In this document: positions 1,939-64,000 of the stretch, piece after piece
Position numbering within the stretch: position 1 is the stretch's first letter
How the letters are laid out: every line of letters begins with the position of its first letter
Source of the DNA: Tribonema minus
Taxonomy: Eukaryota > Sar > Xanthophyceae > Tribonematales > Tribonemataceae
Reading direction: 5' to 3'
DNA: 64,000 bases
Assembly: GCA_017506865.1 (NCBI GenBank)
Contig: JAFCMP010000368.1
Location: forward strand, 868,001-932,000
Program-made: the position numbers and the translations under genes
Notes under the pieces: generated by a model
What the model was told of the DNA's origin: nothing
The model's database searches: none
What the model saw: the letters and a program-made list of their open reading frames with translations, nothing else

Positions 1939-4900
1939 GCGGCGTCTATCCCACACGCTCTGGCTGGGCGCGACGTTCTAGGGGCCGCCAGCACAGGGTA
2001 CGTTGTCTTTCTTCATGAATTGATTAAATCACAAATTCACTCATGAAAAGCTGTTTCAGTCCTTTTCACAAGGCTGGGCGGGTCGTACTGGAGGCCGCCA
2101 GCACAGGGTACGTTGTCTCTCTTCATGAGTCCATGAATATTCTCATGAAAGCTGATTTCACTCTTACGAGTTCATGAATTTCCTCATGCCAACTGGTTTC
2201 AGTCCTTTTTCACAACTTCATGGTTGACTGATTGATGCGTACAGTCATATTGGGGGCCGCCAGCACAGGCATGTTGCCTCTCTTCCTGAGTCAAATGAGC
2301 TCACTCATGGAAGCTGATTTTACTCACCACTGCCGCGTTTTGTCGGCGTCGTGCATGCGGCCAATCCCATATTCTTCACAGAGATACATACCTGCCCCCT
2401 TGCTGCTCCCCGCCACAGGTCCGGCAAGACGCTGGCGTTTTTGGTGCCGCTGCTGGAGAAGCTGCACCGTATGCGGTGAGTAGTCGCCAGCGATTGTAGA
2501 ATTTGGAAGTATCTTATCAAGGGGCTGCAGAAGCTCACAATCACTTGCTAGCAGCGCTGCATAGTACGCAATGCGCGGCCGTCAGTGACAGCGGAACGTG
2601 AAAGTGCCTTACGGCTTCAAGCAATGCAGACGCTGCTGAACTTAACCAAACACTGGCAGATTTGACATTGCGCTTTCACATGTTTAAAATCACTGCTATG
2701 TTGTTTGCAGACTGCAAGCAGAAATCATGAAGTCTCTGGCAAGTCACGCCTTGACTCTTGCCTCCCCTCAGTGACGCCGCACGCTTGACAGGTGGATGTT
2801 TCGAGAGGGTATGGGGGCGCTCATGTGGCCTTGCTGGCAAGTCACACTTGAACTTTAATTTACTCGCTGAACACTCTGCAGGTGGACATGTGGGGGGGCA
2901 GTCTGGGGGCGCTAGTGGTGTCCCCCACGCGGCATATCACACTTTAACTCCACTCGTGGCATGTCACACTTGAACTTAACCCCTCACTTAACATCTCCCG
3001 CAGGTGGACTTTGGGGACGGCCTGGGGTACTTTGTCCTGAGACAACCGTGGCTTAACTGGCATGTCACACTTGAACTGAACCTCTTTGATGTTTGCAGGA
3101 GGACGTTCGGGGATGGCCTGGGGGCACCACTGATGCCCCCCCGCAAAGTCTCTAGCATGCCACAGTTGAACTGAATATCTTCAGCATTGTGCGCATCGCT
3201 CTGCAGGTGGACATTTGGGGACGGCCTGGGGGCGCTGGTGGTGTCCCGCACCGTGGGAGCTGGCGCTTAGACTCAACTCGTGGCATGTCACACTTGAACT
3301 TAACCCCTTGACTTAAATCGCATCATGCATTGCTGTGCAGGTGGACATTTGGGGATGGCCTGGGGGCGCTCGTGGTATCCCCCACTCGGGAGCTGGCGCT
3401 GCAGATCTTTGAAGTTTCTAGCACGTCACACTTGAACTTACTCTCTTCTATGTTTGCAGGTGGACATTTGGAGATGGCCTGGGGGCGCTGGTGGTGTCCC
3501 CTACGCGGGAGCTGGCGCTGCAGATCTTTGAGGTGCTGCGAGTGGTGGGTGGAAAGCACTTGCTATCAGCGGGGCTGATTGTCGGGTGAGCAAACTATTG
3601 TCCATGGTGCACACAGCAGAGGTTACTCACCCCCCACAATCAGCCCCGCCTTATTCGTACACAGGCTATGTACAATAGTGAGCAACCTCTGCTGTGTGCA
3701 CCGTCACCACTATCAAGTATTGCATGCTTAAAGAATGTGCTATGGAGTAGCATGCAAAAACGTACGCTTTGCAAGAAACAGGTTGGCGGGAAGCACTTGC
3801 TATCGGCGGGGCTGATTGTGGGGCGAGCAACCTGCATGTATGCACTATAATTACCAACAGTATCGTATGACGCCAATTACTGGCAAAAAAGTATACTTGA
3901 GCACCGTGGAAAACACTTGCTATCGGCGGGGCTGATTGTGGGGTGAGCAATCTGTGCATGTATGCACCATGACCCACCATCAAGTGTTGGGTACATCCCA
4001 AGTACTTCGTACTTTAAATGACAACCCGAAGTGTGCAAGATCATCTACTCTGAAGTAGTTTGGTGGGGGGCAGTCGCTATCGGCGGGGCCGATTGTAGGT
4101 GAGCGGCCTACTTATATTTCATCGAGTGTTGTATACCTACATACCTACAGAGTATAATTTATGAAAACTCTTTGTGTAAGATGCTCGTAGAGGCTTTGCA
4201 GTACGAACTTCGAAGTAATTCTCATTTTGCGCTACTTTCTGATACTTGAAGTATCATTTTGCGTTGCGCAGGGGGAAGCGAACTTCAACAGTCTCTAGCC
4301 GCACCGCTGCCAACATGAATACTTGTTGTGTTAGATTTTGCAGCCTGTGCGTGGAAGTAATACTCAACTTCGTGCCACCTGTTAGTGTTGATTTTTCGCA
4401 TCCTTGTGTTGAACACTTCTTGAGCTATGCTATTTTCGATACATACATTTATGTTTCACAGGGGGAAGCGCGACTTCACGGAGGAGCAGTCTCCCCACTA
4501 CCAACATGAACACTCTTTGTACTGGGAGCATCAGATGCTGTTGGAAAAATTTAGCCCGTGCGTTGAATACTCATTTTGCGCGACACTGCGTTTTGTATTG
4601 TTTGCGTCATGCAGCGGAAAGCGTGACTTCACGGAGGAAGCAGGCCATGGTGTCCGCCACCAACATGAGTACACTTGATTACAAGCTCTTGGAGAATTTG
4701 CACTCTGTGCCTTGAAGTAATACTCATGTCGCGCTACTGTTGGATCTTTTCATTGTGATTTATTTTGCGTCATGCAGGGGAAAGCGCGACTTCACGGAGG
4801 AGCAGGCCATGGTGTCTGCCACCAACATCCTCATTGCGACACCCGGAAGGCTGCTGCAGCACCTGGAACAGACCCCTGGCTTTGACGCTTCTCAGCTACA

Positions 4901-7900
4901 GGCAAGTGACATCGTTTCTACAGATACCATGACTTTGAAGTACGTGAAGTATGTTCATGAACTTGAGCACGATGAAGGCTGTTGCAGCACCTCCGAGAGA
5001 TTCGCGGCTGCAACGCATCTCAGCTTCAGTGCTCCGATGACACCTTCATGCTCACATTCATGCGCATGCTTCATGACCGTGGGTGTGATGAAGGCTGCTG
5101 CAGCAGCTCGAACAGACCCCCGGTTTGACGTGTCTCAGCTGCAGGCAAGTGACATTGCTCAGAAACCGTACATCCAAGTACGTTCACCTTAATGAAATTC
5201 AACAGTTCACCTTTATGATCATGGGCGTGATGAATGCTGCTGCAGCACCTCGAACAGACCTGCGGCTTTGATGCGTCTCAGCTGCAGACAAGTGACATTG
5301 CTCAGATACCATGATTTTCAAAGTATCTTCACCTTCGTGAAACTGAACGCAATGAAGGCTTCACCTGCCGGGCACGTCACCGCCCGCGGTGTCCTGTGTG
5401 TCAACGCTCAGGTGCTGGTGCTGGACGAAGCGGACAGGCTGTATTATCAACTTCAACCAACATATTACCAACTTCAACTCTCACCGCGCCCCTGTCCGCG
5501 CTGTGCGTGATGGCCTCTTTGCAGCACGCAGCGCCACCTGGCTGTGTACACTGCAGCGCCGGCCCACGCGCACTGTGTGCCATGGCTTGACTGCGTCGTA
5601 TCAACTTCAACTGTTGGGCACGTCACCTCCTGCCTTTTCCTCTGTCAACGCTCAGGTGCTGGAGCTTCAACTGCACCACCTGCTACTGTTTGGTGCGAGT
5701 TTAGCACCAGAAGTCAGGTGGTCCTGGTTTCGTCATCATCACTCTCCGCTCAGCTGCGCTTCATCAATTTCTACTTCCAGGCACTTCACTACCCGCTTCC
5801 CCCCCCCCATGTTTCACGTTTCAACGTTCAGGTGTGCACCTCATCAACTTCAACCGTTGGGCACGTCACCGCTTGCCTTTTCCTCTGTGCCAACGCTCAG
5901 GTGCTGGTGCTGGATGAAGCGGACAGGCTGCTCGACATGGGCTTTCGGGAGCAGCTCAACAGCGTGCTCACGTACCTGCCGCTGCAGCGACAGACAATGC
6001 TTTTCAGCGCTACGCAGGTGTGCATGTTCGTATGTATGTACTTCTATTTAACGTACTTGCGTATAGAGCGCTGCAGCGGCAGACGATGCTCTTCAGCGCC
6101 ACACAGGTGTATATGTTTGTATGTATGTGCCTCCATTAAACAGCGTGCTCACGTACCTGCCGCTGCAGCGGCAGACGATGCTCTTCAGCGCCACGCAGGT
6201 ATGTATGTATGTATGTATGCATTCGACAGCGTACTTACCTACCTGCCGCTGCATGGCAGACGATGCTCTTCAGCGCTACACAGGTATGCATGTGCATATG
6301 TATTGAACAGCGTTCTTACCTACCTGCTGCTGCAGCGACAGACGATGCTATCCACGCAGGTATGTATCTGTTGGAAAGCGTACATGCGCATTTGCCACTG
6401 CAGCGGTAGACAATGCTCTTCAGTGCTACGCAGGCTTGTTTCAATCAGCCAGCAATATATGTCTGTACATATGTGTATGTGTTTGTGTAGCATATTGACC
6501 TCACTGCAGCTGCAGCGGCAGGCGATGCTCTTTAGGGCTACACAGGCCCGTCTTGCAATGGCAACTATGCATGTATGTATTGTACTTCGACGTTAGTGTT
6601 ACTATGCATGTACTCGACAGGGTACTTACCTACTCCCGCTGCAGCGGCTGACGATGCTCGTCAGCGCTATGCAGGTCCGACTTGCAATGGCACCTATGTA
6701 TGTACGTATTCAACAGCGGACTTCCTTGCCTGCCCCTGCAGTGGCAACGATGCTCTTTGTTGCTATGCAGATCCGTGCTGGTCACACAACGGCAGCAATA
6801 CATGCGTGTACGTATGTATGTACGTACTCAACAACATCATACTAACCTACCTTCCGCTATGGTTCATGCTCAATAGAATCACCGCGTAGCTGGCACGCCT
6901 TGCCTGCAGCCCTCACCCTGACCCTTACTTCAATCCCAGAGCAATACGCACTATGTATGTACCCCCCTTTTTGTTTGCAACTGCAGACACGCTCCGTCAA
7001 AGACCTGACACGGTGTCAGAATCACCCTCGTCCTAATCTCCCGATTGCAGCCAGGCCTAGCCCTTAGAGGGCGTTTCTGCCTGTCACAGCTCCTGTAAAC
7101 CCCCCTCCATGCCCTCTGCCCGTACTTCAACTGCAACTCCAACTGCATCTTCTGCCCCTACTTCAACTGTGACCTCTCTTTCAGCCCAACCTCAACTGCA
7201 CCTTCTGCCCCTACTTCAACTGCAACCTCAACTGCAGACGCGCTCCGTCAAAGACCTGGCACGCCTCAGCCTGAACCGCGACACAGTGGAGTACATCAGC
7301 GCTCAGCAAGCGCAGCCCGAGGGCACTGCAGATGGTGGGAAAGACGGGGGGGCGGGCAGCCTCGGCGCTACGCCAAAGAGGTGGGTGTGTACAACATGCT
7401 TCAAGTACATGAAATAATAGTATGTACTGGTGCCTATAGTGCCCATGAATACCCGCGAGTGCATAGCATACCTACATAAGCCTCGGCGCGACGCCAAAGA
7501 GGTGGGCGTTAACAGCATGCTTCAAGTATATAGTGTGCAGAGGTATACATACCCGTGAATATCCATGCGCACAAAGCATACCTACATAGGAGTACATCAG
7601 CGCTCAGCAAGTGCAGCCTGATGGTGCTGCGGACGGGGGGAAGTACATCCACCATCTGGGCATTTTCACGCCCTGAGCGAGAATTAATAAAAAAGTAAAT
7701 AGCATACCCACGCACCTTAGAGATGGGGGGGCTGGCACCCTCGGCGCGACGCAAAAGAGGTGGGTGTTCATAACATGCTTGACGTACAAATGTACCGTCT
7801 AGTCGATAATTAATGGCCGGGACGTTTTTTTAGTTAGTTTTTCCCACAGCAACAACAAGCACGTCCCCCCTTTTTTGGCTGCAGTAAAATTGTGTCCGCC

Positions 7901-10900
7901 CCCTGTTTTTCAGCCTCAGCAGGGCGCGGAATGCATGTTGTGATGCTGCTAGCAGCTAAATACGCGCCTCGGAGTTGCCCATGATGAGCAGAGACAGCAG
8001 TTGTGGCAGCCGCCTTCGACTTGTCAGACCCCACAGATCCTCACAGCAGCTCAAATGTACGTGTCATCTGTCGATCATAAAGAGTCTCCATGACAAGCTA
8101 ACCCTGACCCTAACCCTAACCCTAAACGACGTCGCCAAAGGGCATCTCATCATTCACTTCCACCACTTTGTGGTGCGAGAGCTGCGGTAGCAGTGAGAGC
8201 AGTACAATTCACATTCTTGGTCGCTGTCATCTCGCTTTTGTTCCTGTAGCGATCTCATGCTGCACGCTGAGTGCAGCAAGAAAGTGAGCAAGAGCCCCTG
8301 CATTTGAGTCCCACTTCTTCGGGCGCATTCATTTTCCGTGTTCACGCTCCATCTGTGTTTTTTATGTTCACGGTCGTGTTCACAGAGCGGGCTGGTGCAA
8401 AACTACATCATGTGTCAGCTGCGTCAAAACCTGGATGCATATGCTCGATGCATTCATTGTCCTTGCTCATGTTCGGGATCCTGATCACCGTGATTCACTG
8501 CGTGTTCACGCTGCAGGCTGGTGTAGAATTACGTCGTGTTCGTTTTCATGTTCATGATCGTGATCCACGCTGTCATGTTCATGACCGATGATCACTCTGT
8601 TTATTTGCGCGCTTCAGGCTGGTGCAAAACTATGTGGTGTGTGAGCTGCGCCAGAAGCTGGACGTCCTTTACTGCTTCCTCTTTTGTGTTCATTACCGTG
8701 TTCATGATCATGATCACGCTGTTCATGACCGATGATCATCTTGTTCATTTCTGTGCAGGCTGGTGCAGAACTACGTCGTGTGCGAGCTGCGCCAGAAGCT
8801 GGACATCCTGTACAACTTCATTTTTTGTGTTCATTATCATGTTCATGATCGTGATCACGCTGTCATGTTCATGACCGCTGATCACTCTGTTCATTTGTGC
8901 GCTACAGGCTGGTGCAGAACTACGTTGTGTGTGAGCTGCGCCAGAAGCTGGACGTCCTGTACAGCTTTCTCAAGACGCATATCAAGAGCAAGACCATCGT
9001 CTTCTTCAGCTCTTGTGCGCAGGTACGTAGGGTTAGGGTGAGGGCCAGGGTTGGAGTTAGGATTAGAATTAGGGTTAGGTAGGGTTAGGGTTACGGTCAG
9101 GGTCAGGGTTCAGCTTCTGCACATAGATTACGTGCGAGCTGCCTGTCCGCCAGTTTACCGCTGTTGTGCGCAAAGTGTCAGGCGCTATGCGCGTTCTGCT
9201 GTCGCTGTCGCGGCACGATCAGGGCTTATGGCGGCGTGAAGGTGCTTGTTAGCACACACGCGGAGACCATTGTCTTCTGCAGCACTTGTGCGCAGGTACT
9301 GCCGCCTTTGGCAGCGAACATGGGGAAGCGAAAATGAGGGAAGCGAAAACGAGGGAAGCGAAAACGAGAGAAGCGAAAGCGAAGGATTTGCCTTGTTCGA
9401 GATGGGCATCGCGCTGCATCGCACCTGCGCGTGGCCAAGACCAGCTGCGCTTAGTTGTGTCAAGCAGCAGCGCTCAGCATTGTGAGAGAGCAGCCTTCAG
9501 TCATGCTGAACGGCCACATTGAGTCATAGTTCTAGCACGCAGCAGTGCTCTGTCATGTATAAAGCAGCAGCGCTCGTTCATGTCAAACAGCAGGGCCACC
9601 CGTGCAAGCAGCTCTAGCGATGGTGATGGGGTCAGGGTTAGGGTTAGGAGTAGGTTAGGGTTAGGGTTAGGGTAGAGCAGCAGCTCAACGTCAAGGGATC
9701 GTGTTGACCGCCTGAGCCTGGATTGAATGGCAGTTGTAGTGATCGGCTCACACATGCTCAGAGGTGCTCATCAGTGTGAGGTGCACTGGCGTGACGGTGC
9801 GCTGCTGCTTGATGTTGCTCAGCGCTGCTTGGTCTGCCCCCCCAGGCGCTGCTGCCTGATTTGTTTGAGCGCTGCTGCTTGTAAGTTATCAAAAGACTGA
9901 CCGCTGCTGCTGTTTTTTTTGTGGCGACGCGCAGGTGCACTTTGTGCACGAGCCGCTTCGTGCGCGCTGCAGGCATGATTGAGCGCTGCTGCGCGCTGCT
10001 GCTGACGCGTCTGAGCGCTGCTGCTTTGTGTTGGTGAGCGTTGCTGCATGGACTTACTGAGCGTCGCTGCTCGCCACGACTGCCGCTCATCGCAACGCGC
10101 AGGTGCGCTTCGTGCACGAGCTGCTGTGCGCGCTGCAGCCGGGAGTGCCGCTGCTGGCGCTGCACGGGAAGGTGAGCACTGCTGCGTGCTGACACACATA
10201 GAAGTAGATATTTCCCGTAAATTAATTTATTTGTTTGAAGAAAGCATACCTCAAGAATCTCACTTCGAAGCATACTTCTTATTTCTATGAGACCAAAGTG
10301 GCTCACTTCATGATTGAAGTACCGGGCGTGCCGCTGCTGGCGCTGCACGGGAAGGTGAGCACTGCTGCGGGCTCACGCACCATGCTTCCCTAAATCCCTT
10401 CTGAAACAAACAATACTCTAAAAAAGTATTCATGTATAATCTTCGAGCGGCTCGCTTCAACGTTAAGTGACGGGAGTGTCGCTCCTCGCGCTGCATGGCA
10501 AGGTGGGCGCTGCTGCGGGCTAATGCATCACACTTGTCTAAATCCCTTCCGAACAAACATTATATCAAGTATTAAAGTATGTTCTCAAAGCGGCTCACTT
10601 CAACATCAAATGGCAGGCGTGCCGCTCCTGGCGCTGCACGGGAAGGCGAGCACTGCTGCAGGCTTACACATGATGATCCCCAAGATCCCTTTTGAAGGCA
10701 GACATACTTAAAAGGAAATCAATCTATTTCTATGATATACCACATGTGTATTGTATGCTGCGATAACACCTGGATCAACGCGACACCCCCCGTGCCGGCT
10801 GCCTGCATGTAGAACTAGGGTTAGGGTTGGGGGTCAGGGGTTTCATGCACCTTCTGTTGGCCCCGGTAATGTTGCGCTCACGTATGCACAATCTGGCGCG

Positions 10901-12253
10901 CCTCAAGCAGCAGAAGCGCAACTCGACAAGCAGCAGAAGCACACGCACATCTACTTTGATACGTGTAGGGCCAAGGCGTTGGGGTGAGGGTTATGGTTGC
11001 GGTCGCGGATGTGGTCCTCCCATGTTGATGTGGCACCGCTCTGTGAGCCGCCTGAGCTTCTAGTCATTTAGTCAGCAATTGCGCCTCGCCTCTGACATGT
11101 GGTTTGGTGCCATTGGCATTCTGGTGTGTGTGCGGCGTGAACCAGCCATGTGGCACCGCTCAACGGGCGGCCTGTGCTTGCCGTCAGACAGGAGCTGATT
11201 GTCACCTCCAATTATGTGTTGCTTTTCACACCGATACTCAACCATTGGTGTGCTCTCTCTCTCGTGTGTGCGCGCGCGGCGCAGCCAAAGCAGCAGAAGC
11301 GCATGCACATCTGCCTAACCCTAACCCTAACAACATGGCGCCATGCCCGCGCTTCCTTTGCGTCACACTCTCAGATCTCACGAACCCTGACCCTCACCCT
11401 AGTCCTCTGTTTTCTGATCGCGTGCGCCCCGCTCGTGCAGCGGGGCAGCTAAAGCAGCAGCAGCGCACGCAGATCTACTCTGTCCAAAATATTGAAAAGC
11501 TAGAGACACATTATCTCTCAACGCACCAACCTCTAACCCTAACCCTCGCTTGCTTGCGCCCCCCTTGTGCTGCAGCTCAAGCAGCAGAAGCGCACGCAGA
11601 TCTACTTTGACTACGTGCGGAAGGCGTCCGCGGTACTGTTCGCAACAGATGTGGCTGCAAGGGGCCTCGATTTCCCCGCCGTGGACTGGGTCATACAGGT
11701 ATCCGTATATATGTCTATTCTTCAGGCTGATGCCCCGGAGAATGCGGCGTCTGACATGTTCTAGATGATGCATACTGTATGTATCGAGTGCTTGGGTATG
11801 TATGAACTTTGCTCACGCCGATGCCCTGGAGGACGCGGCGCGGCGTCCTGCACGTTATCACAAGCGCATGGCACCTACTGTATGTATTGACTGCGTACGT
11901 ATGTATGTACATTCGTGCAGGCTGATGCCCCGGAGGACGCGGCGTCGTACATACACAGGGCGGGGCGAACCGCGCGCTACAAAAGCGGCGGTCGAGCGCT
12001 GCTGCTGCTGCTGCCGTCTGAGGAAAAGGGGATGGTAAGTGCTAGGGCTAAGGTTAGGGTTAGCATTAGGTCCTGTATCAGGGTTAGGATTGAACGGGGC
12101 GAGTCGGGCGCTACAAAAGCGGCGGTCGAGCGCTGCTGCTGCTGCTGCCATCCGAGGAGAAGGGCATGGTGAGGGCTAGGGTTGGAGAGAAAGGCAGAGG
12201 TAGGGTTAGGGCTAGGGCGTAGTGGACTGTACATCACAAGAGCGACGGTCAAG

Positions 12254-12304
<51 letters not shown>

Positions 12305-13967
12305 GCTGTTCACAAAGAAATGGCAAAGCCCCGCACCTCACGGGAAATAACAGCAAGTGTACGTGGTCTCCTTGTTCAGTTCAGTTTTGATGCAGTCTAG
12401 TTTCGACGATGGGGGGCGACAGGACGGTCCTTTGAAGCATTCCGCAACCTTCACCAGGTGCTGACCGCACATGGCTATTGGTTTTACAGATGGTGCAGCC
12501 GGATGTTGAGAGCATGTGGTTCCTTTCAAGTCTCACTGTGGAAGTTGCAGTCTCAGCTTGCACGCAGTCACACACCTCCCGCCAACTGCTCGCAAATCAT
12601 GACCATCTGGTGCACAGGTGACGTCACTGTCAAATGCAGATTGTTGAAGTATGTACTTCAATTGTTGAAGTATGTACTTCAATTGACGACCCCCCTTGAA
12701 GTGGCTTCTTACGAGCAGGTGACCCTTTCAGCGACAGCTGGTAATGTACTTCTGACGCCGCTGTCATAAGACGATCGTGCAGTGCTTTGACATCTTTCCA
12801 TGAAGCAGATCGTTGATGTAGCTAGGCCTTTGCGTCCTCTCTTGCACTGGCTGACCGCAAGAATGTGCAACCCTTCCCCCAGTGACTGCCTACAAACATG
12901 TCTGGTGCGCAGGCGGCAGCAAGTGCCCAGGCGTTTGCGTTCTCCCTTGCTCTGGCTTACGGCAAGTATGTGCGACCTCACCCTCAGTGATTGTTGTTGC
13001 ATCATACTTCTATCTGGCGCACAGGTGGCGGCTCTGTCAGCTCATGACTGTCGGTGTACAGGCCACGCCCCTCCCAAGCAGATTGTTGAAGTCTGTAGTT
13101 CTCAACCTCTTCCTTGCATTGGCTTCTTGCGAGCATGTGCAAACCTGTCCTCAATGTTTGCTCATCAAACATACCTGGCGCACAGGTGGCGGCTCTGTCA
13201 AAGCAGAAGATCCCCATCACCAGGCTCACCGTCAACCCTGACAAGATGCGCGCGGCAGGGTGAGTTTAGGGTTACGGTTAGGGTTGGGGTTAGGATTAGG
13301 GTTTGTGCACGGGTTAGCGTTAGGATTGGGGTAGGGTTGGAAACATAACCCTAACCCTAGTTCTAAGCTCACCGTAAACCCTGACAAAATGCGCTCCGCA
13401 GGGTGAGTTGGCTAGGGTTAGTTTGGATTAGGGTTTGTGCAACACCAGGGTTAGGTTTAGGGTTCGGACGAGGGGTAGGGCGTGTCCATTAATCAACACC
13501 CGTCATCCCGCAGGTGGAGTGGTCTTTAGGGTTAAGGTCAGGGGTCGGTCTCGCGTGCATGTCGTAAAATGCACTGGACAGATGTCTGTGAGTTGAGCAG
13601 AGAGTTTCAAGTTACACATACGAGTTGCGTTCGGGTGACGGTCGGGGAGCTAGAGCTCATGTCTCTGAACCTGTGAGCACATCACACCGACATGAAAAAA
13701 CTTGAAGTCACGCTGGGTTTATGTGTTGGGTCTTTCTTTCTCCTCTGTCAGCTGGGCGTCCTGCCACACCAAGCGTGTTGAGTCCTGTTCCCTCCCCTTC
13801 CTCATGTGCCTGACATACTTGAGCAAGACCTTGAATGTCATTCTTGATCTTGATATGTTCTATGTATTTGATATGTTCTACTTTGTTCTTGATTTTGTAC
13901 GCTACGTGACCGTAATTACCATTTTCGCTCTCTGTCACACACTATGCTCTCGAGTGTCATTCAGTTT

Positions 13968-14005
<38 letters not shown>

Positions 14006-18688: not shown

Positions 18689-18724
<36 letters not shown>

Positions 18725-22953: not shown

Positions 22954-23009
22954 CATGGTCACTCCGTCGCAGGGTGGCAGCCCCTCGCAGTCAACGCCCT
23001 AACAGCGGA

Positions 23010-25497: not shown

Positions 25498-25562
25498 AAA
25501 ATACTTCATTTTGTACATGTACTTCATTTTGAACATGTACTGCATTTTGTACATGTACTTTT
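25498..25562. repeat. Short tandem repeat, 18-base unit
   Basis: About three copies of TACTTCATTTTGTACATG with single changes; a further partial copy lies at 25680-25700. Confidence 0.8.
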
Positions 25563-41760: not shown

Positions 41761-41766
41761 GTACGT

Positions 41767-43390: not shown

Positions 43391-43630
43391 TTACTGTAGT
43401 ATGCCAACTTTGAAATCACACCTCAGGCTGGTTACCATTGGTCCAATGGCATGACATTGTCCTACAACAGGCAGCTGTCCCTCCTGAAAGCTTGCGCTCG
43501 ACTTGATGAGATGCGATGCAGAACAAGCCTTTGAGAATTATTATAGACACACTGCCAGCATCGTTCAACAAGTTGCCGCAGCGGTGGGCAGCAGAAACGA
43601 CGGCCGCAGCGTCGACAATCCTGGCCCAGT
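43182..43630. repeat. Inverted duplication of a retroelement segment
   Basis: About 55-70 bases with the core GTCGACGCTGCGGCCGTCGT occur on + at 43186-43250 and, with a short insertion, in reverse complement at about 43555-43625, outside the main frame. Confidence 0.8.
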
Positions 43631-45200: not shown

Positions 45201-48200
45201 TTACCCGTCACTCCCGTCCCCCTCCAAGTCGCTGGCGGCGGCTTCTGCAATGTCCATGGCCGCAATGTTGAGGGCTTCGCGAAGCGTCTCTGCCTCCTCC
45301 TGCAACGGAGCAACGCCAACATTCACATTGGTGATGACCAATAATCTTTCAATTGTGTAATAATATATCACTTCTGTTGCCGCAATGTTCAGGGCTTCGC
45401 GCAGCGTCTCTGCCTCCTCCTGCAATGGAGCAAGTTGAACGCCAAACATTTACATTGGTGATGACAGATAATGTAATCATATATCGATACTGTTGCGCTA
45501 TGGCAATTCTCCTCGTGTGAGCAAACGAATCAGTATTTTGTTTTACGCATTGCAGCGTCTCTGCCGCTTCCCGCACCGTAACAGTGCCGCCTTCGGCACA
45601 ATATTACATGCTGGCCATCCTGCAGGTGAAAACACATAGATTTCAAACGGGGGGGTTGCGCGACGCTGCGGCTTCACCTCCTCCTGCACCGGAGCAATAC
45701 TGCATTTTTGGCTATTCAAATATTGCATGCTGGCTGTTTTCGTGTGCGTGTGAACGACACAAGGACCATGCTTGTGTCTTGGTACATGTAGGACATGGTC
45801 TTACAGGCACTGATACATCTGGACGATTAGCTGCAATGTAACAGGTGTCCATGAGGGTTTTGCGGCGCGCTGTGTCTCTGCCTCTGCCTCCGCCTGCAAT
45901 GGAACAACGCGATGTTAGACACTGAGATATGACATGCTGTCGACTTTGTGTGCGGATTCTTCTGATCTGATCCTAACGCTTACCCTAGCCCTACACAAAG
46001 TCACGGCACGCACTGCATGGCAGGCCCTTCTGCAGAAGAAACTTGCAGCATGCAAAGACAGTAAAATGTCCCATCATCTTGATACTACAGGTCGTCGAAG
46101 CGCGCACCCCAATTCAGAAGTCGCGTTCATTCCTTCACATTGATTCATTCATATGCTTTCACCTCATCTTGAAAAGCAGCAGCATGGCAGACCGAGAAAG
46201 AGGTGTCCCGAACAGTGGATAGGCAGTTGCGAGCTCAAAGTTAAAGTTGCACTCATCTCACCTTGTAACCAAGCAGCATGGTCTCCGTGTTCTTGCGCGC
46301 TTCTCTCTCTAACCGCAGTGCCTATGAAAAAAACGCACGACAGTGCAAAGGGCGTCGTTGCGAAAATGACATCCGTCAGAGAAACGCATCTGAAATGCCT
46401 CAGGCACGCTGATACCCAGTGGCGTGAATGAGGAAATGATAGTCTTGAAGAATTACCGTATACAGCGATGACAATAATGAGGGACACAGGAGATGGCCAC
46501 AAAGTACTACACATTGATTGGTTGATTTGGGCGCTTGACTGGCAACTGGTACTTCAACACGACATTGTGCTTCCGAATCAACTGACGATAACGAGGAACA
46601 CAGGATGAACTCAAGGTACTACGCATTGATGGTTGCTTTGGACGCTTTGACTGGCATTTGGTACTTCAACTCTTGTACTTCACCTGTGCCTAATCGCCGC
46701 CGATCTGCCTCCACCTCAATAGCGCGCCGCAGGGCCTGTGCTTCTTTAACTTCACATTGTACTTCATCTCTGCTAATTACTGCCGATCCGCACCTCTTGA
46801 GCACTGGATTGGTTGCTTCAATTGGTACTTCAACTTGATGTTGTACTTCACCTCTGCTTATCGCCGCCGATCTGCCTCCACCTCAATAGCGTGCCGTTGG
46901 GCCTGCGCTTCTTCAACTTCACATTGTACTTCACCTCTGCTCATTGCCGACAATCTGCACCTCTGCATTGAGCACTGAGTCGATTGCTTTAACTGGTACT
47001 TCAACATTGTACTTCACCTCTGCTAATCGCCGGCGATCTGCCTCCACCTCGATCGCCCGTCGCTGCGCCTCTGCTTCTCTGTCGGCGGCCCTTGATGCAC
47101 GCTCCTGCACGCGAAAGTAACACACGGCTCAGCAAAATGTACTTTGCTAGACCTGGAGCTAGGGTTAGCAAGCGCGCACATGGATGAACTTGAAGTGCGG
47201 CATGACGGCACACTAGACCCTAGGGCTATAGTTAGCACGCGCAAGTGATACACGTCTCAGCAAAAATGAACTTCAAGTGCGGCGTGAAGGCACACTAGAG
47301 CCTAGGGCTAGGGTTTGACCCTAGTGCTCGGGTGAGCACGAGCAAGAAGCACACGGCTAAGCAAAGCGAACGTTAAGTGCAGCATGACGGCACAGAGGTT
47401 CAAACCGCACCCTGGCTGCGCGCTCCTGCACGTGCAAGTAACACATGGCTCAGCAAAATGAGAACTTCCAGTGAACTTCAAGTGCCCACAAGCTGCAAAC
47501 TTGGTACACAGTGTCGCTCATTGCATCTGTAGCCCCCCCCCAATCATGAGCTGCGCCATGAGCGCACAGTTGTTAGACATGCACGAGCAACACACATTAA
47601 TGGGACTTCAAGTGCAGCGACGTCGCAGCTTCAATTTGCTTGAATTTGCATTTTAGAGGGGTACCTTTTGCATTGCTCAACGCGACACAAAACTCAGCCC
47701 AATCCAGTTGAGAGCTAGCTTTGAAGTGAGTCGAGTGACGTACACAGTAGCTGAGCATCGCTCCTTGAGAGCAGGGTGAGGGTTCAGCTGAGTGTTAGGG
47801 TTGAAGTTTGTATTATGAGCATAGGGGCTGGTTGACCATTATCGCATTGCGCAGCGTATCGCATACCTGAGCCTGCTACACGAGCGTATCGACGAGCCGC
47901 ACCAGGCGCCATATATACCCTCGAGGTAGGGTCAAAGTTTAAACGAGGGTTTGCTGAGCATCATTGCATTGCGCAGAGTATCGCATACCTGAGCCTGCTC
48001 CACGAGCGTATTGACGAGCCGCACCACGCGCCACCCCCTGCAGTACCCCAGCAGCCTTAGCTCTGCAGCATCAGCGAGGATGCAGGTGAAGTCAGCACTT
48101 GAAGTTTGCGTTTGGAGGTTTTAGGTCGGTGTAAGCGCCGGAGGGGGGCGCGGTGATCTCACGGGCAGATCCGCAGCATGTGCCGACACTTCAGCAAAGA

Positions 48201-51200
48201 GATAGTCACTTGCTGCAGATTACTGAGTATGGATCGCGTATGTAAGGGTAGGTTTGGGCAAAGCGACAAGCACGTGCTGTCAGCGATGCGTGCCTTGCAA
48301 GGACGGACAGCACCTGCAGAGGATCATGTCGTGCGCGTGCTGGACTTGGTTGCTAACCTAACTCTAACCCTAACCCTCACCCTAACCCTAACCCTAACTT
48401 CAACACAGTCAGAGGCACAGCCGCCGTGCGCCGCATTCATGCTATGACCATCGCACGCTATCGCTGACATCACGTCTCCGCCCCTCAAGCACAAGTAGGC
48501 AGGGTACAACGAGCGCAAGAGCGCGTGCAAAACTCCTGTGCCTGGCACCAGTGCATGTTACTTTAAAGCCACTTTTGCCAAACAGCTTTGATCTGCCAGC
48601 TCGCCAGTGCACCCCCCCCCCCCTTCTCCCGCCCCCCGCTGCAGTTACATGCGCACCTGGTGCAGCGCGTTCGATGATTGCTCAATACTAAAAGTGGAGA
48701 GTCACACTTGCCTTTTGAGCCCCCCTGCAGCTCGCGCCACAAGCACGCTGCCACTATCGCCAGATCCAGCATGTAGCCCAAATGCTGCGGATTCGGAAGG
48801 TAAACAAGTGCACATGCAACAAGGCGTTTGACTGTGATGTGCAGAAAATCATAGAATCATAGCGGACATCGTTTGAATGCGATTCACATAATCATAGAAT
48901 TGTAACTGATATCGTGTGATGAGTGTGATTCACGGGACTCATATGTAGCATTATACAGATGCCACTTGAATGCGATTGACGAGACGCATAGGATCATGAC
49001 AGATGCCGTTTGACTGCGATTCACGGGAATCATAGAATGACAGAGATCGTTTGAGTGTGATTCACAGGAAATCATAGAATCATGACACATATCGGTTGAG
49101 TGTGAGTCCCGGCAATCAAAGAACCACGACAGATATCGCGAGGGGCCTGAGCAATGAGGATAGGGTTAGCAGAGGGGTAGAGGCGTCAGCTAGCACAGAC
49201 CGTGTGTCTTGCTCGCAGCACGCAGTGGGTAACTGCTGAGCCCGCGCCTCTGAGGTTGAATGTTGGGTCAGAGATGAGTATCCTTCTGAAGTAGTTCATT
49301 CCTGACAGACTTCAAAGCACTTTGAAGCACACTATTTTCAAGTATACCTATTGCATGCAGTGATTGCGCATTTAGTGCCTGTCATTTGGATGTCCTTCCG
49401 CATTGTGCTGCGGAGGTCGTCAGAAGCGTCCCTAGACCACCGTCATGTTGAAGTTATTCGCCGGCTTTCTTACGTGTGCTTCCACAAACATCACGGTGAC
49501 GCACCGAGCAGTTGGCGGGAGTTGAAGGTGGGAGAGTCACTGTTCTGGTGACGCACCTATTCGTGTCGCCACAGTTTGTGATCGGGGCGATGTGTCTCCG
49601 CCAGTGACATTGGGCAACACCCGTCTCCGCACCGTGACCCTAACCTGACCCCTAGCTGCTGCACACAGTGGATGGCGCAACAGCCGCATCCACACCATAT
49701 ATTTAAAGCTATGCCTGAATCTGATACTATGTTCAACCCTTATACTAGCTCACATTTCACCTCAACCCTCACCTTGTTTCTAACTCCAACACTAAGCGCC
49801 AGTGACTTTGGCAACACCCGCCTCCAGATCCTAATACTAACCCTGATCTGATCTTCAGCTGCTGCACCAGCGAATTGGGCAACAGTCGCCTCCAAATCCT
49901 AAACCCTACACCCAATTCTGATCCTACGTCTGACCCTCCACCTAACCGGCAGTGACATTGGCACCACCCACCTTCAGACCTTAACCAATACCCTACTCCT
50001 AACCCCTGACCTAATCTTCAGCTGCTGCTATGTCGGCAAGTGCTGATGTGGATGGTCCTTACCAGAGTGAGTGAGTGAGTGAGTGAGTGAGTGAGTGAGT
50101 GAGTGAGTGACCGGGGCGTTGTGTCACCGCCAGTGGCATCAACAAGACCAGCACTCAAACGCCAACCCTCACGCTATCCTGACCCGAGCTTAACTTCAGC
50201 TGCTGCACTACCAACTTGTGTGCAGCACTTATGAACTTGTATTTATAGTGGCCCCAAGGGAGGCTGCGTGTCCTATGCAATCGTAAAAATTACTCCTATG
50301 CAGCAGCCTAGTCTGCACTGCGCCCTGAAAGTTTGGACACCGGCGCTGCAACTGTTACCGCCGCATTGGCCGCACAGACCACAACATGGAAGATGAAAGA
50401 GTCAGTGAATGAGTGAGTGAGTCAGTGAGTGACCATCACCAGCGACGCTGACAAGACCAGCCTCGAAGCCCTAACACCAACCCTAACCTAACCTATGAGC
50501 TGCTGCAGCGGCGGCCAGATTGTGAAAGCCCCACTGCAACAGCGGCCATGCGGACTGCGACTACGGGAGACATATACACATGGGAGAGTCACCAGCGGAG
50601 CAAACACAGTAGGCGCTCACCAGCAGGAATTTTCTCCGGAACGCCGCCAGCAGCACCAGCAGCTCCAGCGCAAAGAAGAATATGGTGAAGTCCATGAGAG
50701 AGCCCGACACGCGCTGCGCCACTGCCACCCACGCGCCCTGCAGCGGTGCAATGCGGAACAGTTGAAGTTGAGTGCTTCATGTGTGACTTGCCGGGGTGAA
50801 GTCCATATGAGAGCCCAACACGCACTGCGCCACTGCCACCCACGCGCCCTGCAGCGGGGCACATGCAGAACAGTTGAAGTTGAGTGCTTCATGTGTGACA
50901 TGCCGCGGTGAAGTCTGTCAGCCAGCCCGATAAGCACCGCCTAAGCCTGATCCTGACCCTAACCCTAACCCGCCACTGCCACCCACGCGCGCTGCAGCGG
51001 GGCACATGCAGAATACTTACAGTTGCGTGCTTCATGTGCGACATGCCGTGGGCAAGTCTGTCAGCAAGCCTGATACACACTGCGTCACTGACATCCAAGC
51101 GCCCTGCAGCGGTGCAAATACAGACCAGTTGAAGTTAAGTGCTTCCATGTGTGACATGCCGTGGGGAAGTCTTCCAGCCCAATACGCACTGCCTAACCCT

Positions 51201-54200
51201 GACCCTCACCCAAACCCTAATCCGTCACTGCCATCGGCGCGCCCTGCAGCAGCGTGAGAACATAACACTTGAAGTTGAGTACGTCATGTGTGACGTGCCG
51301 TGGTGAAGTCTCAGCGCGCTGCGCCGCTGCCAGGCACACGCAGCCAGCAGGGCGGCGCATGCGGATCAGTTGGTTTTGAGTACTTCAAAAGTGACGTGCC
51401 ATGGGGAAATCTATCGAGCCTGACACTCGCTGCGCCACCGCCACCCATGCGCCCTGCAGAGCGCGGCACACAACACACAGCTGAAGTTAACCACATCGCA
51501 CTTTGAGCCTCCACTGCATGCAGGGAATGTCTAAGAAGCGATGCGTTCGAAGCGTGTCAAAAGAAGACATGGAAGCGCGGCTGCTGTGCGTACGCGCAGC
51601 TTATGCTGTCATCACAACACGGGTACAACGTGTGCCGGGCACACAAGCGACCTGCGGCACGATGGATTTCCCCTGTTGTTCATTGCCAGTTACATGGCCA
51701 AAACTGTTGGCAGTGGGAAAGTCGCTCATTGGCGGTGCCAGCAGTGGGGCGAAGTACTGCATCACAAGGCTTTGCAGCTGAAGCCAGTAGTACCTGTGCC
51801 ATTGCACGCATGGCTGGAGAATATGACAACATGACCCTGTCAGAAGCCCTCGTGCCGAGCTACGCAGCTGAAGACGGTGATACCCATGCCATGCGCTGTG
51901 CGCAACGCCTGCGTGGCTGGACTGGGAACAGTACAAAGCAATGGTGACCCTCACGGAGGTACTTCCGCTTCTTCCACGTCTTGTTGCTACACAGCCTGAC
52001 GCTTAGCTGACAGGCAACAGCATACATGCCTTCTGTAAACACCTGCCCATGACACGACCTATCACAAGTACTTTTGTTGCTTTGCCCGCAAGTAATTCTG
52101 CAAAGCGAAGCACAAGCCGTGTGGCAGCAGGCTGATCAACGCGTAAACAGCACCACTAACCCTAACCCTGACCCTTGCCGAACCTCCTGCAGTACACAGC
52201 AATTGCAGTGTACTGAAGCCTTCATGGCAGTGTGGCCCAGCTTGCGTGACACCGGCAGCTAGCTGCTGATGTGCTGTATGCGACACCAGGCCCATTGCGT
52301 CATTCATGAATTCATTTCACGCGCACAAAAGGCTTGAACGCATACTTGCGCTTCAGGAAGGTTCCCAGTCGACCGCAGTTCACATCGCAACCGTGACGCC
52401 AAATCGCGCACCACAGCAGGCTTTGCCGCTATAATGGCAAGAAGACGATCGCACAGCAGCCTGACCTATTCTGAAGTACCAATTGCGTACAGTGTGGGTA
52501 CCTGACCCTCTCCCCACGCCAGTCCTCATGGTGCGTCTAAACAACTCGAAGTACGGTTTTCAGCAGCGTCAACCTCAAACTGCGAGTGTGATGCACCTGC
52601 CGTGCGTCCGCCAGCGCGCCGCCGCCCCCTGCGCCCCCCAGCCACAGCAGATTGGCAGTGCTCAGCAGCAAAAGTATGTTGTTTTCGGCGCCAACTTCAA
52701 ACTGCGAGTGTGACGCACCTGACGCTCCGCCAGCGCGCCGCCGCGCCCCGCCTCCCCCAGCCACAGCAGATCGGCGGCGCTCAGGAGCAAACTTCAACTT
52801 GAAGTATGTTTTTCAGCAGCGTCAACTTCACACTGCAAGCGCGACGCACCTGGCCCTCGCCGCCGCGACCCGCCCCCCCCCCAGCCACAGCAGATCGGCA
52901 GTGCTCATGGCAGCAAAAGAACTTGAAGTCAGGTTTTCAGCAGCGTCGACTTCAAGCGCGGCGCACCTGATGCTCCACCAGCGCGTCGCCGCGCCCCCCC
53001 GCCCCCGCCAGCCACAGCAGATCGGCAGTGCTCAGCAGCAGGTCCATCATGATGAGCATCACCATCAGCAGCTGCACCTCGTACAGCTCCACCAGAGCTG
53101 CGAGGTTCTGCAGTCCAGCCGGCGCGTGCGGCGGGGCGTCATCTTCAACTTTTGCTACCTGAACTTCCGCCTGTCGGAGGGGCAAGCAGTTTACTTGCGA
53201 CTTTCATGCATGCATGAGCATCCACAATGTGAACAGTTTCTTGAGTTAACATCATTCACAAAAACTCGCACAGCCTTCATTTTTCCGCCTGTCATCGCAA
53301 GGGCAGTATTAGAGCTCCGACTGTCATGCAACATGATGTCTGCAATACAGGGCGTTATTTGGGAAGGCTTCATAGACTGCCCTGCAATCTACCTATGCAC
53401 CCTCACTTGCTGTATTATAAAAGTGTTTATATACTACTCAAGCACAGTCAACCCTTTCTGCTGCCTGGGCCGTCGCTTGACAGCATGCGCAACTCATACA
53501 ACCTGTGTACTTCGGATTGCTTCTCACTGATAGACATTTGGTGGCATACACTGTCCAATCGGCAGCTTCAAGCGGACCCCCCCCTGATCCGGACTTATGG
53601 GAGTTGAACTACAGTCGGTCACAATGTGGGTGCTGGCGCCACAATACATGCACACTTTGTGCTGAGCACTGCTGACGCCGCTCAAGGGCGATCCCGCTTA
53701 GATGTGTAATTCATGCGTGTTGCCACCCTCCGCGCAGCACTGTTTTCCGCCTACCAGAGGCCCTCCCGGCGTTTGTACTGTTGTCGAATTAGAGACTCAA
53801 ATGTGCAGGCCTGCATGCCATGATAGTATGCGGGCTTGCACTCGTACTGCTGTTGTGTCAGATAAGGTATACTGTCTGTGACGCAACAGGGGTTCATGTG
53901 CTGAGCGCTGCGGAGCCACTAAGCACTGCCACAGGGCAAAGCACCAGCCAGCTGAGCGCTGCGGTCACACCAATTTGCACTATCCCTGCCGTACGTTGCG
54001 AACTGACGCACAGCGGTCCACGTTGTTGAGCGTTGTGGAGCCACTGAGCACTTCCACGGGTAAATCATCAGCCAGCCGAGTGCTGTGATCACAACAAACC
54101 ATTTCACCTGGAGTGATCGAGTGCCATGAGTGAAAGGCTGCACAACACATGGTAAGCATCAACTCTGGCACCGGCAACATGCGGGAAATATGCCGAGATG

Positions 54201-55109: not shown

Positions 55110-55398
55110 CTAGGCCGCACGGCAGCTCTCCATGAGAACACCTACAGAGCCCCGCTCACACCACACTTGTTCTCCTGGAAGTGCAGAATTCAACATGAGG
55201 TTGAAGTTGACTCGGGAAAGAACTTGGGGAGAGAGGGACGGTGACCAGAGCCTGTATACGGATGTGTGGAGCACGAGCCGTAAATTTATAGCGCTGGCAT
55301 TCGACCTGCAACACCGGCGGCGACAGCACAGTGCCGGACCGTCGCTGAGGATCTTACTCGACGGAACGCTCCACCAAGTGGCAACACAACAGAGACCG
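55110..55398. promoter_or_regulatory. Probable divergent promoter between Hv1 and the rightward gene
   Basis: Only 289 bases separate the two proposed start codons (55109 on -, 55399 on +). The interval holds a TTGAAGTTGA word near 55200 and no clear TATA box. A + frame opens from ATG 55132, so the rightward start is uncertain. Confidence 0.5.
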
Positions 55399-61300: not shown

Positions 61301-64000
61301 ACGCGTCGCACTTTAAGGTTGAAGTGAAAACGTGCAATCTTGCAACAGTGTAACACATGTATCAGTGGCTGCATGCTGCAGCAGCTGTGGAAGTAGTGTT
61401 GGGGACGTGAGGCGGGCTGCAGTGCTCAGGAGAGGGCTGGCAACCGCTCAAAGTCTGTCCAGGTCGGGTGCCTGCTGTGGCGATGACTGTCAATGAATGA
61501 ATCTTGGCTGAGTGTGGACCCAGGGTAGAGACCTGATTTGCCGAACCTGTCTCTGGCATTGTAACATTAAGCAGTAAGGTTTGCTGAGCCCAGCAAGCCC
61601 CCATGTGCTGATGTGCCTCTACAGCTGTTAATACGCAGTATTAGCTAACCCTAGCCCAAACCCTAACCTTTTGCCTATTCGCAACGCCTGCCTCCGGTGT
61701 GTCGTTGATAGGCAGTGAGGTTGTCAGCTTGTGAAGCCCCATTTGCTGGCGCATTGGCTGTCACGGTTGCCTCGTTGAAACAAGTCGTCAGCGCGTGTGT
61801 GCGCGCACGACAATCGTGACAGCACGGACTGAGAGCTGAAGTGCTTCTTCTTGCGCGCAGGACGAGACTGATGGCGAGCTGAGCCTGTCCGCGCGGCGCG
61901 CGATGAGCGCTGCTGAGATAGCAGTGCTCAGAGAGCAGAAGCAGCGCGAGCGCGACCACTTGGCTGATGCTAAGGTACTACAGTATTTTGCTGTGAAACA
62001 ATGCATTTTGGGTTCGTGTCACGTATGCAACATGGCAGTGCTCAGAGAGGAGAAGCAGCGCGTTTTGATATGAATTGCTTTCTTCCACTTGAAGTTGTTT
62101 CACTTATGCCTAACCCCCACAAGTCTCAAATCGTTGTATCGATGTTGTTGGAGTCAAATCTGAGTCATGCATCAACATTGAAAACTCAAGCTCATTTCAA
62201 TCTATGTGGACACCCACAGATGTTGCTGTCCGGCCGTGTGTCACGCTGGTTGCATTTGGACAAGCAAGATGCGCATTGTTTGAATGTGTCTATAGTTAAA
62301 ACGATACATCACTGATTGTAGAAGTATACATAAACATAATATAAGCTCACTTGCCCGGTGTATGCACGTCAGCGGACGCTGCTGCTGTCAGGTCAAAGGG
62401 CAAGGGGATGTACACCCACGCTTGGAAGCTGATCCTAGTTTTCTTTCATGTGCTGTGTGCGCATCTCTACAGATGCTGCTGTCTGGGCGGAGAACAACCA
62501 CCCGCCCGCCCGCGATACCTACCCCCAACAGCGGCATCGCCAAATCCGTCTCGCTGTTCTACAGGAGGTGAGCATGAAACGGCTAGTAATGCTTTCTCTT
62601 TCAGGGGATGACTGTGCATGCGTGCGGTTCCCTGCAAATTTGCAAAATCGGCTTTTTGGGTGCGGCGATGTGCTTTTCGCCCGCGATACCTACCCTCAAC
62701 AGCGGCATCGCCAAGAGTGTCTTGCTCTTCTACAGGAGAAAAGTGTGGAATGGCTGATGCTTTCTCCTTCAGGGGGAGACTGTGCATGCGTGCGGTACCC
62801 AGCAATTTTTGAAGTGCGATTCGCAGTGTGTGGTGTGTGCCAGCATGCGATCAGGCGCAGATGACGCGCAAGGGGAGCTATTTAAGCCCAGCGTTGTTGC
62901 CCAACATTCTAGGTATTACCAGGCACTTGGTGTTATTTGTGCAGAGGCTTCCTGGGCATGGCCCACCTGCGGCGCACGCCGGACTACACCATACCTACAT
63001 ACCCACACACCCCGTTCGCGCAGGCGTACGTGCCCTACGTACCCATACCCCCCGTTCGCGCAGGCGTGCGTGCCCTGCGTGCAGTGCTCCTGTGACACAC
63101 GCAGTGCTCGTATACCTGCACTGAGCACATGTGCCCATGACTTCCGTCTGCGTTGGCACATCTGGGGCATGGTCCACCTCTGGCGTGAAGTATACCATAC
63201 GTACCCATACCGCACAGGCGCGTCCGCAGCGTTGTTTACCTAGGGCGCACGCTGGCGCACGCAGGATCGGCAGCAGTTGCAGACCCTTCTATATGCATAC
63301 ACAGCTCACGTACCTAAACCCTCTATCTTCGCAGGCGCATCCTGACCATGGTCCGCAGGGGCACACGCGATCAGCAGCAATGGCAGGCCGCTGAAATGCA
63401 TCACAACTCCACATACATAGTATTACATACTTACCATCGAACACCCTATATCGCCCACATGCATCCTGGGGCATGGTCCACCTGTGGCACATGCAGGATT
63501 AGCAACCGTTAGAGGCACGTCCGCCGGGGGCATCGAAGCATGCGCAGAGTGCACATAATCATACCTACCCGTACCCCAGGCGCATCTTCGGCATGGTCCA
63601 CCTGTGGCGCACGCAGGATCAGCACCGGCTACAGGCCACTGAAAGATCACAATGCCATACATACCCTGAATATGCTGTCCCGTTTTCGCAGACGCATTCT
63701 GTGCATGGTACATGCAGCACCAGTATTCCTGTACACCCTTCCTGTTCGTGTGCACCAGTAGCCTGGTCACTGTTTCTATTCGTGTGTTGTGCCGTTGTGC
63801 AGCTGTATCCTGGGTATGATCCACCTGTGGCACACGCAGGATCAGCAGCGGTTACAGGCGCTCGGGCCAGGCATGCAAACTTGCATGTACTCATACCTAC
63901 CCATACCCCCCTTGCGCAGACGCATCCTGGGCATGGTCCACTTATGGCACACGCACAATCAGCAGCGGTTACAGGCATACAACCGTACGCACCCATACCC
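55399..64000 (+). CDS. Low-complexity protein with Trp-rich repeats, unknown function (3' end outside window)
   Basis: Proposed exons: 55399-55631, 56018-56126, 57238-57291, 58079-58792, 60067-61029, 61861-61974, 62473-62567, then an exon coding RILGMVHLW that occurs in several copies from about 62955 to the edge. Phases agree through 62567. The start (MARGLPLLVAALYLCSS) is a signal-anchor or organelle-targeting type segment. Exon 3 codes GGLLAELWARLP. Exon 4 (238 codons) is Ala/Gln/Pro-rich and includes LLSWVGMGGKGG. Exon 5 (321 codons) is Ala- then Gly/Glu-rich with four copies of a PLQQLWGWWGG-like motif. Exon 6 codes a charged helix with AEIAVLREQKQRERD. I recognise no family. High GC makes several frames open on both strands here; this one is favoured because its ends meet GT/AG signals in matching phase and are duplicated like the exon edges of the known genes. 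Confidence 0.6.
56160..56470 (+). repeat. Copies of exon 2 donor edge (rightward gene)
   Basis: Two copies (about 56180-56240 and 56325-56440) of the exon end CCACAGAG and its donor region GTAAGGC(G/A)CAAACTCAGC. The second also repeats the internal block GCGGAGTCAAAGGACCTGCAG. Confidence 0.85.
57360..57425 (+). repeat. Copy of exon 3 donor edge (rightward gene)
   Basis: GGGCTGCTTGCGGAACTCTGGG to CTGCCGGTAAGCGCAGCGCTCAGCAAGTG nearly repeats the end of exon 3 and its intron start, preserving frame over GGLLAELWARLP. Confidence 0.87.
58033..58049. repeat. C17 homopolymer before exon 4
   Basis: A run of seventeen C about 30 bases upstream of the exon 4 acceptor at 58078; possibly an unusual polypyrimidine tract. 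Comparable runs: G16 at 26473-26488 and C24 at 44913-44936. Confidence 0.9.
58890..59370 (+). repeat. Copies of exon 4 donor edge (rightward gene)
   Basis: Three or four copies (near 58900-58965, 59050-59105, 59190-59215, 59290-59370) of GAGCGCTGTGGGCAGC...TCAGAGGCACAG with GTGGGCAGC donors; flanking intron with TGAGAGATGGGCA is repeated too. Confidence 0.85.
62205..62750 (+). repeat. Copies of exon 7 edges (rightward gene)
   Basis: Acceptor-edge copies (ATGCTGCTGTCTGGGCGG-like) at about 62219 and 62375 precede exon 7 (62473-62567). A donor-edge copy at about 62680-62742 (CCCGCGATACCTACC... CTGTTCTACAGGAG-like) has lost its GT donor. The intron GATGACTGTGCATGCGTGCGGT is also doubled (62605, 62778). 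Confidence 0.85.
62950..63998 (+). repeat. Eight-copy array of the next exon of the rightward gene
   Basis: Units near 62953, 63165, 63343, 63467, 63580, 63692, 63802 and 63920. Each has a GCAG (or remnant), CGCATCCTGGGCATGGTCCA, CCTGTGGCACACGCAGGATC and often AGCAGCGGTTACAGGC. Several are intact for RILGMVHLW. Which unit is spliced cannot be told; the functional one may be the last here or lie past the edge. Confidence 0.85.

Follow-up and report, generated by a model that had tools for sequence, protein, structure and literature searches.

We analysed a 64-kb stretch of DNA (the window; positions 868,001-932,000 of contig C368) within a genome searched as 158 Mb in 554 contigs. On the plus strand at ~1.9-12 kb lies a gene for a DDX18/HAS1-type helicase, identified by comparison of its joined exon translations with the PDB (E 1e-62) and by Pfam matches to DEAD and Helicase_C. 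Its exons were placed by eye, giving a model with nine introns that ends at exon 11921..12034, and it is the sole gene of the window for which homology gave a model. Pfam scans in three frames, seven in all and covering parts of the window, returned DEAD/Helicase_C and PT-repeat domains only, and an Rfam search over the window gave no hits at gathering thresholds. The helicase exons and the intronic copies of their acceptor and donor edges are as follows.

1940..1997, plus strand: last part of a helicase exon (read by eye, start not fixed), with donor copies at 2108 and 2269
2419..2475, plus strand: short helicase exon; no edge copy found
3460..3585, plus strand: helicase exon; acceptor copies upstream at 2882, 3004, 3099, 3207 and 3341, donor copies downstream at 3823 and 3943
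4778..4901, plus strand: helicase exon with motif ATPGR; acceptor copies at 4272 and 4615, GC donor with copies at 5145 and 5288
5901..6017, plus strand: helicase exon with motifs DEAD and SAT (Pfam PF00270); acceptor copies at 5412 and 5656
6107, 6199, 6284, 6360, 6434, 6546, 6675 and 6771, plus strand: the eight donor copies of exon 5901..6017
5958..6757, plus strand: donor-edge array, from Tandem Repeats Finder (5958-6349) and self-BLAST; copy spacing 74-129 bp
7238..7380, plus strand: helicase exon; acceptor copy near 6987, donor copies at 7502 and 7760
8908..9022, plus strand: helicase exon; acceptor copies at 8517, 8618 and 8759, donor copy at ~9296
10103..10171, plus strand: helicase exon; acceptor copy at ~9935, donor copies at 10355, 10503 and 10646
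11576..11698, plus strand: helicase exon with TDVAARGLD; acceptor copies at 11285 and 11449
11921..12034, plus strand: helicase exon with HRAGRTAR; acceptor copies at 11726 and 11817, donor copy at ~12169

An earlier note on this DNA had reported decayed copies of exon edges in the introns of all four multi-exon genes; within the window the confirmation applies to the helicase gene, where they are plainly visible, with five acceptor copies before 3460 and eight donor copies after 6017. The copies carry part of the exon, the splice site and part of the intron, in direct orientation and near its source, as expected of tandem duplication across an exon border. The helicase is the clearest case: the pattern can be seen by eye in its nine modelled introns, it supplies 36 of the 84 copies in the gene sample described below, repeat families linked to exon edges make up 51% of its intron bases, and local repeats cover 34-68% of the gene in two-kb bins of the window. 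The GC donor of exon 4778..4901, at window position 4902, recurs as GC in one of two aligned decoys, as we call the copies that lie apart from the working exon.

The sample comprised 14 genes with spliced exon models (42 introns, 84 exon edges, 38,222 bp), namely the helicase and 13 genes from outside the window. Of these, three encode DEAD-box proteins and eight light-harvesting proteins; the other two are biotin synthase, immediately upstream of the window, and the rRNA dimethyltransferase DIMT1. Pfam hit lists supplied the DEAD-box and light-harvesting loci, which were taken for their closely spaced exon hits and not for repeats; three and twelve loci, respectively, were picked in this way, light-harvesting loci L020, L021, L023 and L030 were left out as poor models, and L018 and L032-L035 were also unused. 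Biotin synthase and DIMT1 came from two of 13 ten-kb pieces and were chosen for recognisable exons when repeat density was already known; both lie in repeat-bearing pieces and the repeat-poor pieces contribute no gene models, so the sample may favour the pattern. Hand edits were made to L015 (donor and one intron), to L027 and L031 (introns) and to L025 (first intron). Locus L025, which has two stops in its joined frame, was excluded from the base-matched and per-branch codon counts and kept in the decoy-decoy comparison. One tested protein is closest in the PDB to fucoxanthin chlorophyll a/c proteins, the top entries being diatom proteins; given this likeness and the light-harvesting protein genes in the genome, we place the source organism among photosynthetic eukaryotes of the red-plastid lineage. 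A search for the plastid genome with psbA gave one weak match, below cut-off.

Across the 14 genes, a copy was present in the adjoining intron at 38 of 84 exon edges (45%), 84 copies in total, and 28 of the 42 introns hold at least one copy whereas 14 hold none. The statement that most exons are accompanied by copies is narrowed by these counts, and two genes, the helicase (36) and biotin synthase (20), supply 56 of the 84 copies. Nine of the 13 genes outside the window carry copies, and the four without them are all among the eight light-harvesting genes. Enrichment over shuffled introns, set beforehand as a test, is clear, with 70 copies found by exon-interior probes and 0 expected. When 35-nt exon probes were scanned with low-complexity probes skipped, 45% had an intron copy at the edge (0 nt), falling to 2% at 80 nt inside the exon; 14-23% of intron probes had a copy whatever their position, and in stretches lacking coding signal a local copy was found for 7 of 948 probes (search radius 450 bp).

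The copies also obey the side rule that had been proposed, with acceptor copies upstream and donor copies downstream of the exon: they occupy the expected side at 38 of 84 edges and the wrong side at none of 44 testable edges, and no antisense copy was found at any of the 84 edges. This one-sidedness needs no special mechanism and is expected of any local tandem duplication after selection, because a tandem copy straddling a border leaves a working gene only if splicing uses the copy joined to the exon body. At an acceptor, duplication of an intron tail and exon head would give two heads, and the second alone would run on into the exon body; donors would be the mirror image, and the reverse order of copies would require a jump across the exon.

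Copies differ by ~5-35%, with indels, and the distribution of their differences distinguishes the working copy from the decoys. Over 25 arrays, where at least two decoys could be compared at a site, the changes seen in the working copy alone number 1/1/15 at codon positions 1/2/3, whereas those seen in a single decoy number 46/43/64, indicating that the copy joined to the exon body does the coding and that the decoys drift. The nearly even spread on the decoy branches does not show the coding constraint that alternative or mutually exclusive exons would be under, although a mild lean to the third position (p 0.025, 0.14 and 0.020, according to threshold) would allow slight constraint; such a lean is expected if later decoys share synonymous changes that the working copy had gained earlier. 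Decoy-decoy differences of 9.7/10.0/20.5% by codon position likewise show a third-position excess, the direction expected if decoys were born from a coding copy at different times. When matched for base, the third-position excess is 3.37 for working-decoy and 2.38 for decoy-decoy comparisons, both above the simple neutral bound of 2, and these values stay partly unexplained. In-frame stops occur in 3 of 1,325 decoy codons. Decoys resemble one another more in their exon part than in their intron part (identity 0.858 versus 0.809, 19 arrays, p 0.008), and the intron side of the copies diverges faster than neutral simulations predict, though part of the asymmetry arises in those simulations too. 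No significant age gradient along the arrays was detected (nearest versus farthest decoy identity 0.866 versus 0.844, 19 arrays, p 0.23); this counts a little against serial copying, which predicts younger decoys nearer the working edge.

How well splice sites are kept depends on how the copies are found. In a splice-site-independent sample, found by exon sequence 10-45 nt from the border, the splice dinucleotide is exact in 47 of 70 copies and lies within 2 nt in 54 of 70; in the sample found across the border, GT or AG is exact in 81 of 91 copies, and the dinucleotide is kept in 53 of 60 alignments. The claim that copies retain splice sites is thus to be taken more narrowly, and decoy splice sites do exist but decay like their surroundings. 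At 47/70 the dinucleotide is not better kept than the sequence around it, while the cross-border sample looks better kept. A functional role for the decoys had first been suggested by exon-biased conservation and the third-position excess; most of that case was removed by the per-branch changes and the unbiased splice-site count.

Longer introns hold more copies, a relation that the earlier note had proposed to test: over the 42 introns of 14 genes, length correlates with copy number (rho 0.64, p 4e-6), and median length is 1040 bp with copies and 494 bp without. Copying as the main source of intron length goes further than these data, however, as edge families account for about one-third of intron bases (33.3%, with other families at 5.3% and a total of 39%), and length is about equally well correlated with non-duplicated bases (rho 0.68 against 0.70, 34 introns). 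Old local duplications across exon borders thus seem to account for part of intron growth. Most of the detectable duplications look old: among pairs of at least 90% identity, contiguous tandem copies are 2 of 43 in the window and most loci (L001, L031, L033 and L035 are outside this count) and 0 of 20 in the annotated genes. Duplication simulated up to the present leaves 55-91% of such pairs contiguous, against the 0/20 of the real genes, and was rejected; duplication simulated as having stopped some time ago leaves 0%. This near-absence of contiguous pairs led us to change the time model of the simulations.

The most reasonable explanation for these observations, and one that we consider somewhat better than evenly probable, is old, repeated local tandem duplication across exon borders, in which the copy not fused to the exon body became decaying intron. 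Long ago and repeatedly, short stretches of DNA, mostly ~90-200 bp, would have been duplicated beside themselves inside genes. Where the duplicated unit straddled an exon border, the gene would have worked on, with splicing using the copy fused to the remainder of the exon; the other copy, left before an acceptor edge or after a donor edge, would have become intron and decayed as non-coding DNA, and repeat events at one edge would have lengthened the intron stepwise. We infer that the elementary event was a tandem duplication of DNA and that the working edge gave rise to its decoys at different times; introns were presumably short when duplication began, and duplication appears largely to have stopped.

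Whether exon borders were also preferred sites of duplication can be judged from the repeat families. Thirty-seven of 57 families touch an exon edge (share 0.65; 8-nt rule) and 20 do not, so that the "edge-only" pattern once described is a strong bias, also evident in the 33.3% versus 5.3% coverage, but not a rule. An earlier 12-gene set without the helicase gave 14 edge and 9 other families, covering 22% and 6% of intron bases. These ratios would fit a duplication process directed at exon edges, in which one break lay in the intron and its partner within the exon, mostly 20-90 nt from the border, perhaps because breaks or template switches fell preferentially in exons (e.g. through exon-bound nucleosomes or transcription); such a process might have been a main engine of intron growth genome-wide. 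Random placement evenly in time gave edge shares of 0.27-0.48 in two sets of simulations, and in a third set 0.61-0.95 only in runs with 74-98% of intron bases covered, against 39% observed. When 50-90% of events were forced onto edges, shares were 0.52-0.82 in 15 of 19 runs; later runs with 70-90% forced gave 0.63-0.68 and, as observed, ~5% non-edge coverage. The rarity of local repeats in stretches lacking coding signal compared with introns points the same way. However, an untargeted old episode in very short introns yields similar ratios: with random placement, conserved exons (an assumption of these simulations) and ancestral introns of 5-10% of present length, shares were 0.48-0.78 in 8 of 14 runs and 0.00-0.30 in the remaining 6. 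The heavy over-representation of edges that was our first result is weakened by these runs, which come close to it. They do not reproduce everything, as the eight runs have 8-17% non-edge coverage, the observed 5.3% lies below every old-episode random run with edge coverage of at least 0.30 (lowest 8.1%), and they contain 0-10 pairs of at least 90% identity versus 20 in the real genes. Also against aimed duplication, self-alignment confined to introns shows no clear edge peak (0.31 and 0.33 versus 0.28 mid-intron, 34 introns), pairs with intron-part identity of at least 85% number 14 at edges and 18 in interiors, many of the latter inside edge arrays by position, and no signature of breakpoints emerged. 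Much of the edge-only look is thus explained by an old episode in once-short introns, since exon conservation lets edge copies be detected for longer than interior copies. Edge-directed duplication fits that look somewhat better and a residual preference for edges is possible, but as the account of intron growth we regard it as tentative and, on present evidence, rather unlikely.

Other sources of the copies are far less probable. Selection might have kept decoys whose extra splice sites or exon fragments regulate splicing, and the better conserved exon side, the splice dinucleotides of the cross-border sample and the scarcity of in-frame stops would all fit; against this, the dinucleotide decays when copies are found without it, changes on the decoy branches are nearly even over codon positions, and neutral simulations reproduce part of the exon/intron asymmetry. 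In these comparisons we see no good case for selection on the decoys and nothing that would point to function, and we consider this reading very unlikely. Introners create introns in bulk in some lineages, and these mobile introns, or transposons, could in principle supply repeated units, but what is copied here is the exon end of the very gene that holds the array. When the genome was searched with 10 kb of the helicase gene, the matches listed (39 of 516 candidates scored; one gene) comprised a dispersed repeat of 260 bp (7.79-8.05 kb), telomere-like repeats and some short matches, and none lay over the edge positions. We consider a mobile source about as improbable as selection. Least credible of all is an assembly artefact from noisy long reads, given the divergence of the copies with its indels, the agreement of two redundant contig pairs at 99.87% and 100%, and the selection-specific change on working copies. 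These pairs (L032/L033 and L034/L035), in which small contigs repeat parts of large ones, reflect redundant assembly or very low heterozygosity, and their comparison revealed no informative difference.

Tandem duplication across exon borders, which we prefer to these alternatives, has relatives among known processes. Internal gene duplication, tandem exon duplication and mutually exclusive exons are likewise direct local duplications of exons, but they keep whole usable exons, whereas the copies here are mostly 20-90 nt of one edge, one-sided and apparently non-coding. Intron lengthening is usually told as transposon insertion. Among the papers listed by a literature search, titles and the starts of abstracts yielded no recognisable description of exon-edge arrays as a widespread contributor to intron length. 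The elementary event, duplication across an exon border, is already known: in the potato RdRp gene (PMC4974935), the duplicated piece takes over a branch site, a polypyrimidine tract and a 3' splice site from the parental intron/exon structure. Intron gains by AGGT duplication (vertebrate ATP2A1, potato RdRp) are alike in being local tandem duplications that carry splice signals, but they make a new intron in single cases, whereas here existing introns seem to have been lengthened, with copies in 28 of 42 introns and up to eight per edge. Introners (PMC9860276) resemble the arrays in their large-scale effect on introns but are one mobile family at many genes, whereas the exon part of each array comes from its own gene. 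Long introns in a red-lineage alga also recall the brown alga Ectocarpus, with an autosomal intron median of 524 bp; passages of that study discuss intronic transposons and make no mention of exon-edge copies (PMC12477816). In the 14 genes studied here, repeat families that take in a gene's own exon end make up one-third of the intron bases, and the decoys keep older exon states, like a fossil record. If general, this would make intron growth directly datable and would raise the question of how the spliceosome ignores near-copies of real sites; if duplication was indeed aimed at edges, it would be a route to long introns distinct from transposon insertion and introners.

Local direct repeats extend beyond the modelled genes. 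Self-comparison of 19 ten-kb pieces (six in the window and 13 outside, five of the 13 on the same contig) detected 360 direct and 5 inverted pairs within 1 kb, far above the 0 local pairs in Markov-simulated controls, one per piece. Coverage is uneven, several pieces having 20-45% and others almost none. Six of the 13 outside pieces (L007, L008, L009, L010, L012 and L014) have 0-5% local-duplication coverage, some with long coding stretches, which indicates that the duplication process is very uneven over the genome. Within the window, two-kb bins lacking coding signal near 1, 22, 38, 40 and 54 kb have 0-7% coverage, and local repeats in unmodelled or downstream stretches are the following.

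46655..47078, no strand assigned: local direct-repeat array in an unmodelled stretch (Tandem Repeats Finder/self-BLAST); no Pfam match
50684..51490, no strand assigned: local direct-repeat array in an unmodelled stretch (Tandem Repeats Finder/self-BLAST)
52517..53040, no strand assigned: local direct-repeat array in an unmodelled stretch (Tandem Repeats Finder/self-BLAST)
62507..62809, no strand assigned: local direct repeat with copies 171 bp apart, 82% identical (self-BLAST)

Several other repeats are present. Telomere-like TTAGGG/CCCTAA runs occur at window positions 9028-9110, 9629-9675, 13266-13338, 29542-29581, 30941-30970, 35816-35858 and 48353-48398, some of them inside helicase introns; similar repeats stand at the starts of contigs C533 and C423, and in biotin synthase one decoy exon end passes straight into telomere-like repeats. 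The 260-bp dispersed repeat (7791-8052), inside a helicase intron, has at least 21 places at 70-87% identity. A high-copy repeat of ~130 bp (25535-25676) is mostly 91-96% identical, with side-by-side local copies elsewhere. A dispersed element of ~1.6 kb (41761-43345), overlapped by a 439-codon frame on the minus strand, has at least 39 further places of about the same length at 96% identity. Finally, 29870-35672 on the minus strand encodes PT-type disordered repeats (PTAEPTSEPT) in separate blocks ~1 kb apart, which are perhaps repeated exons.
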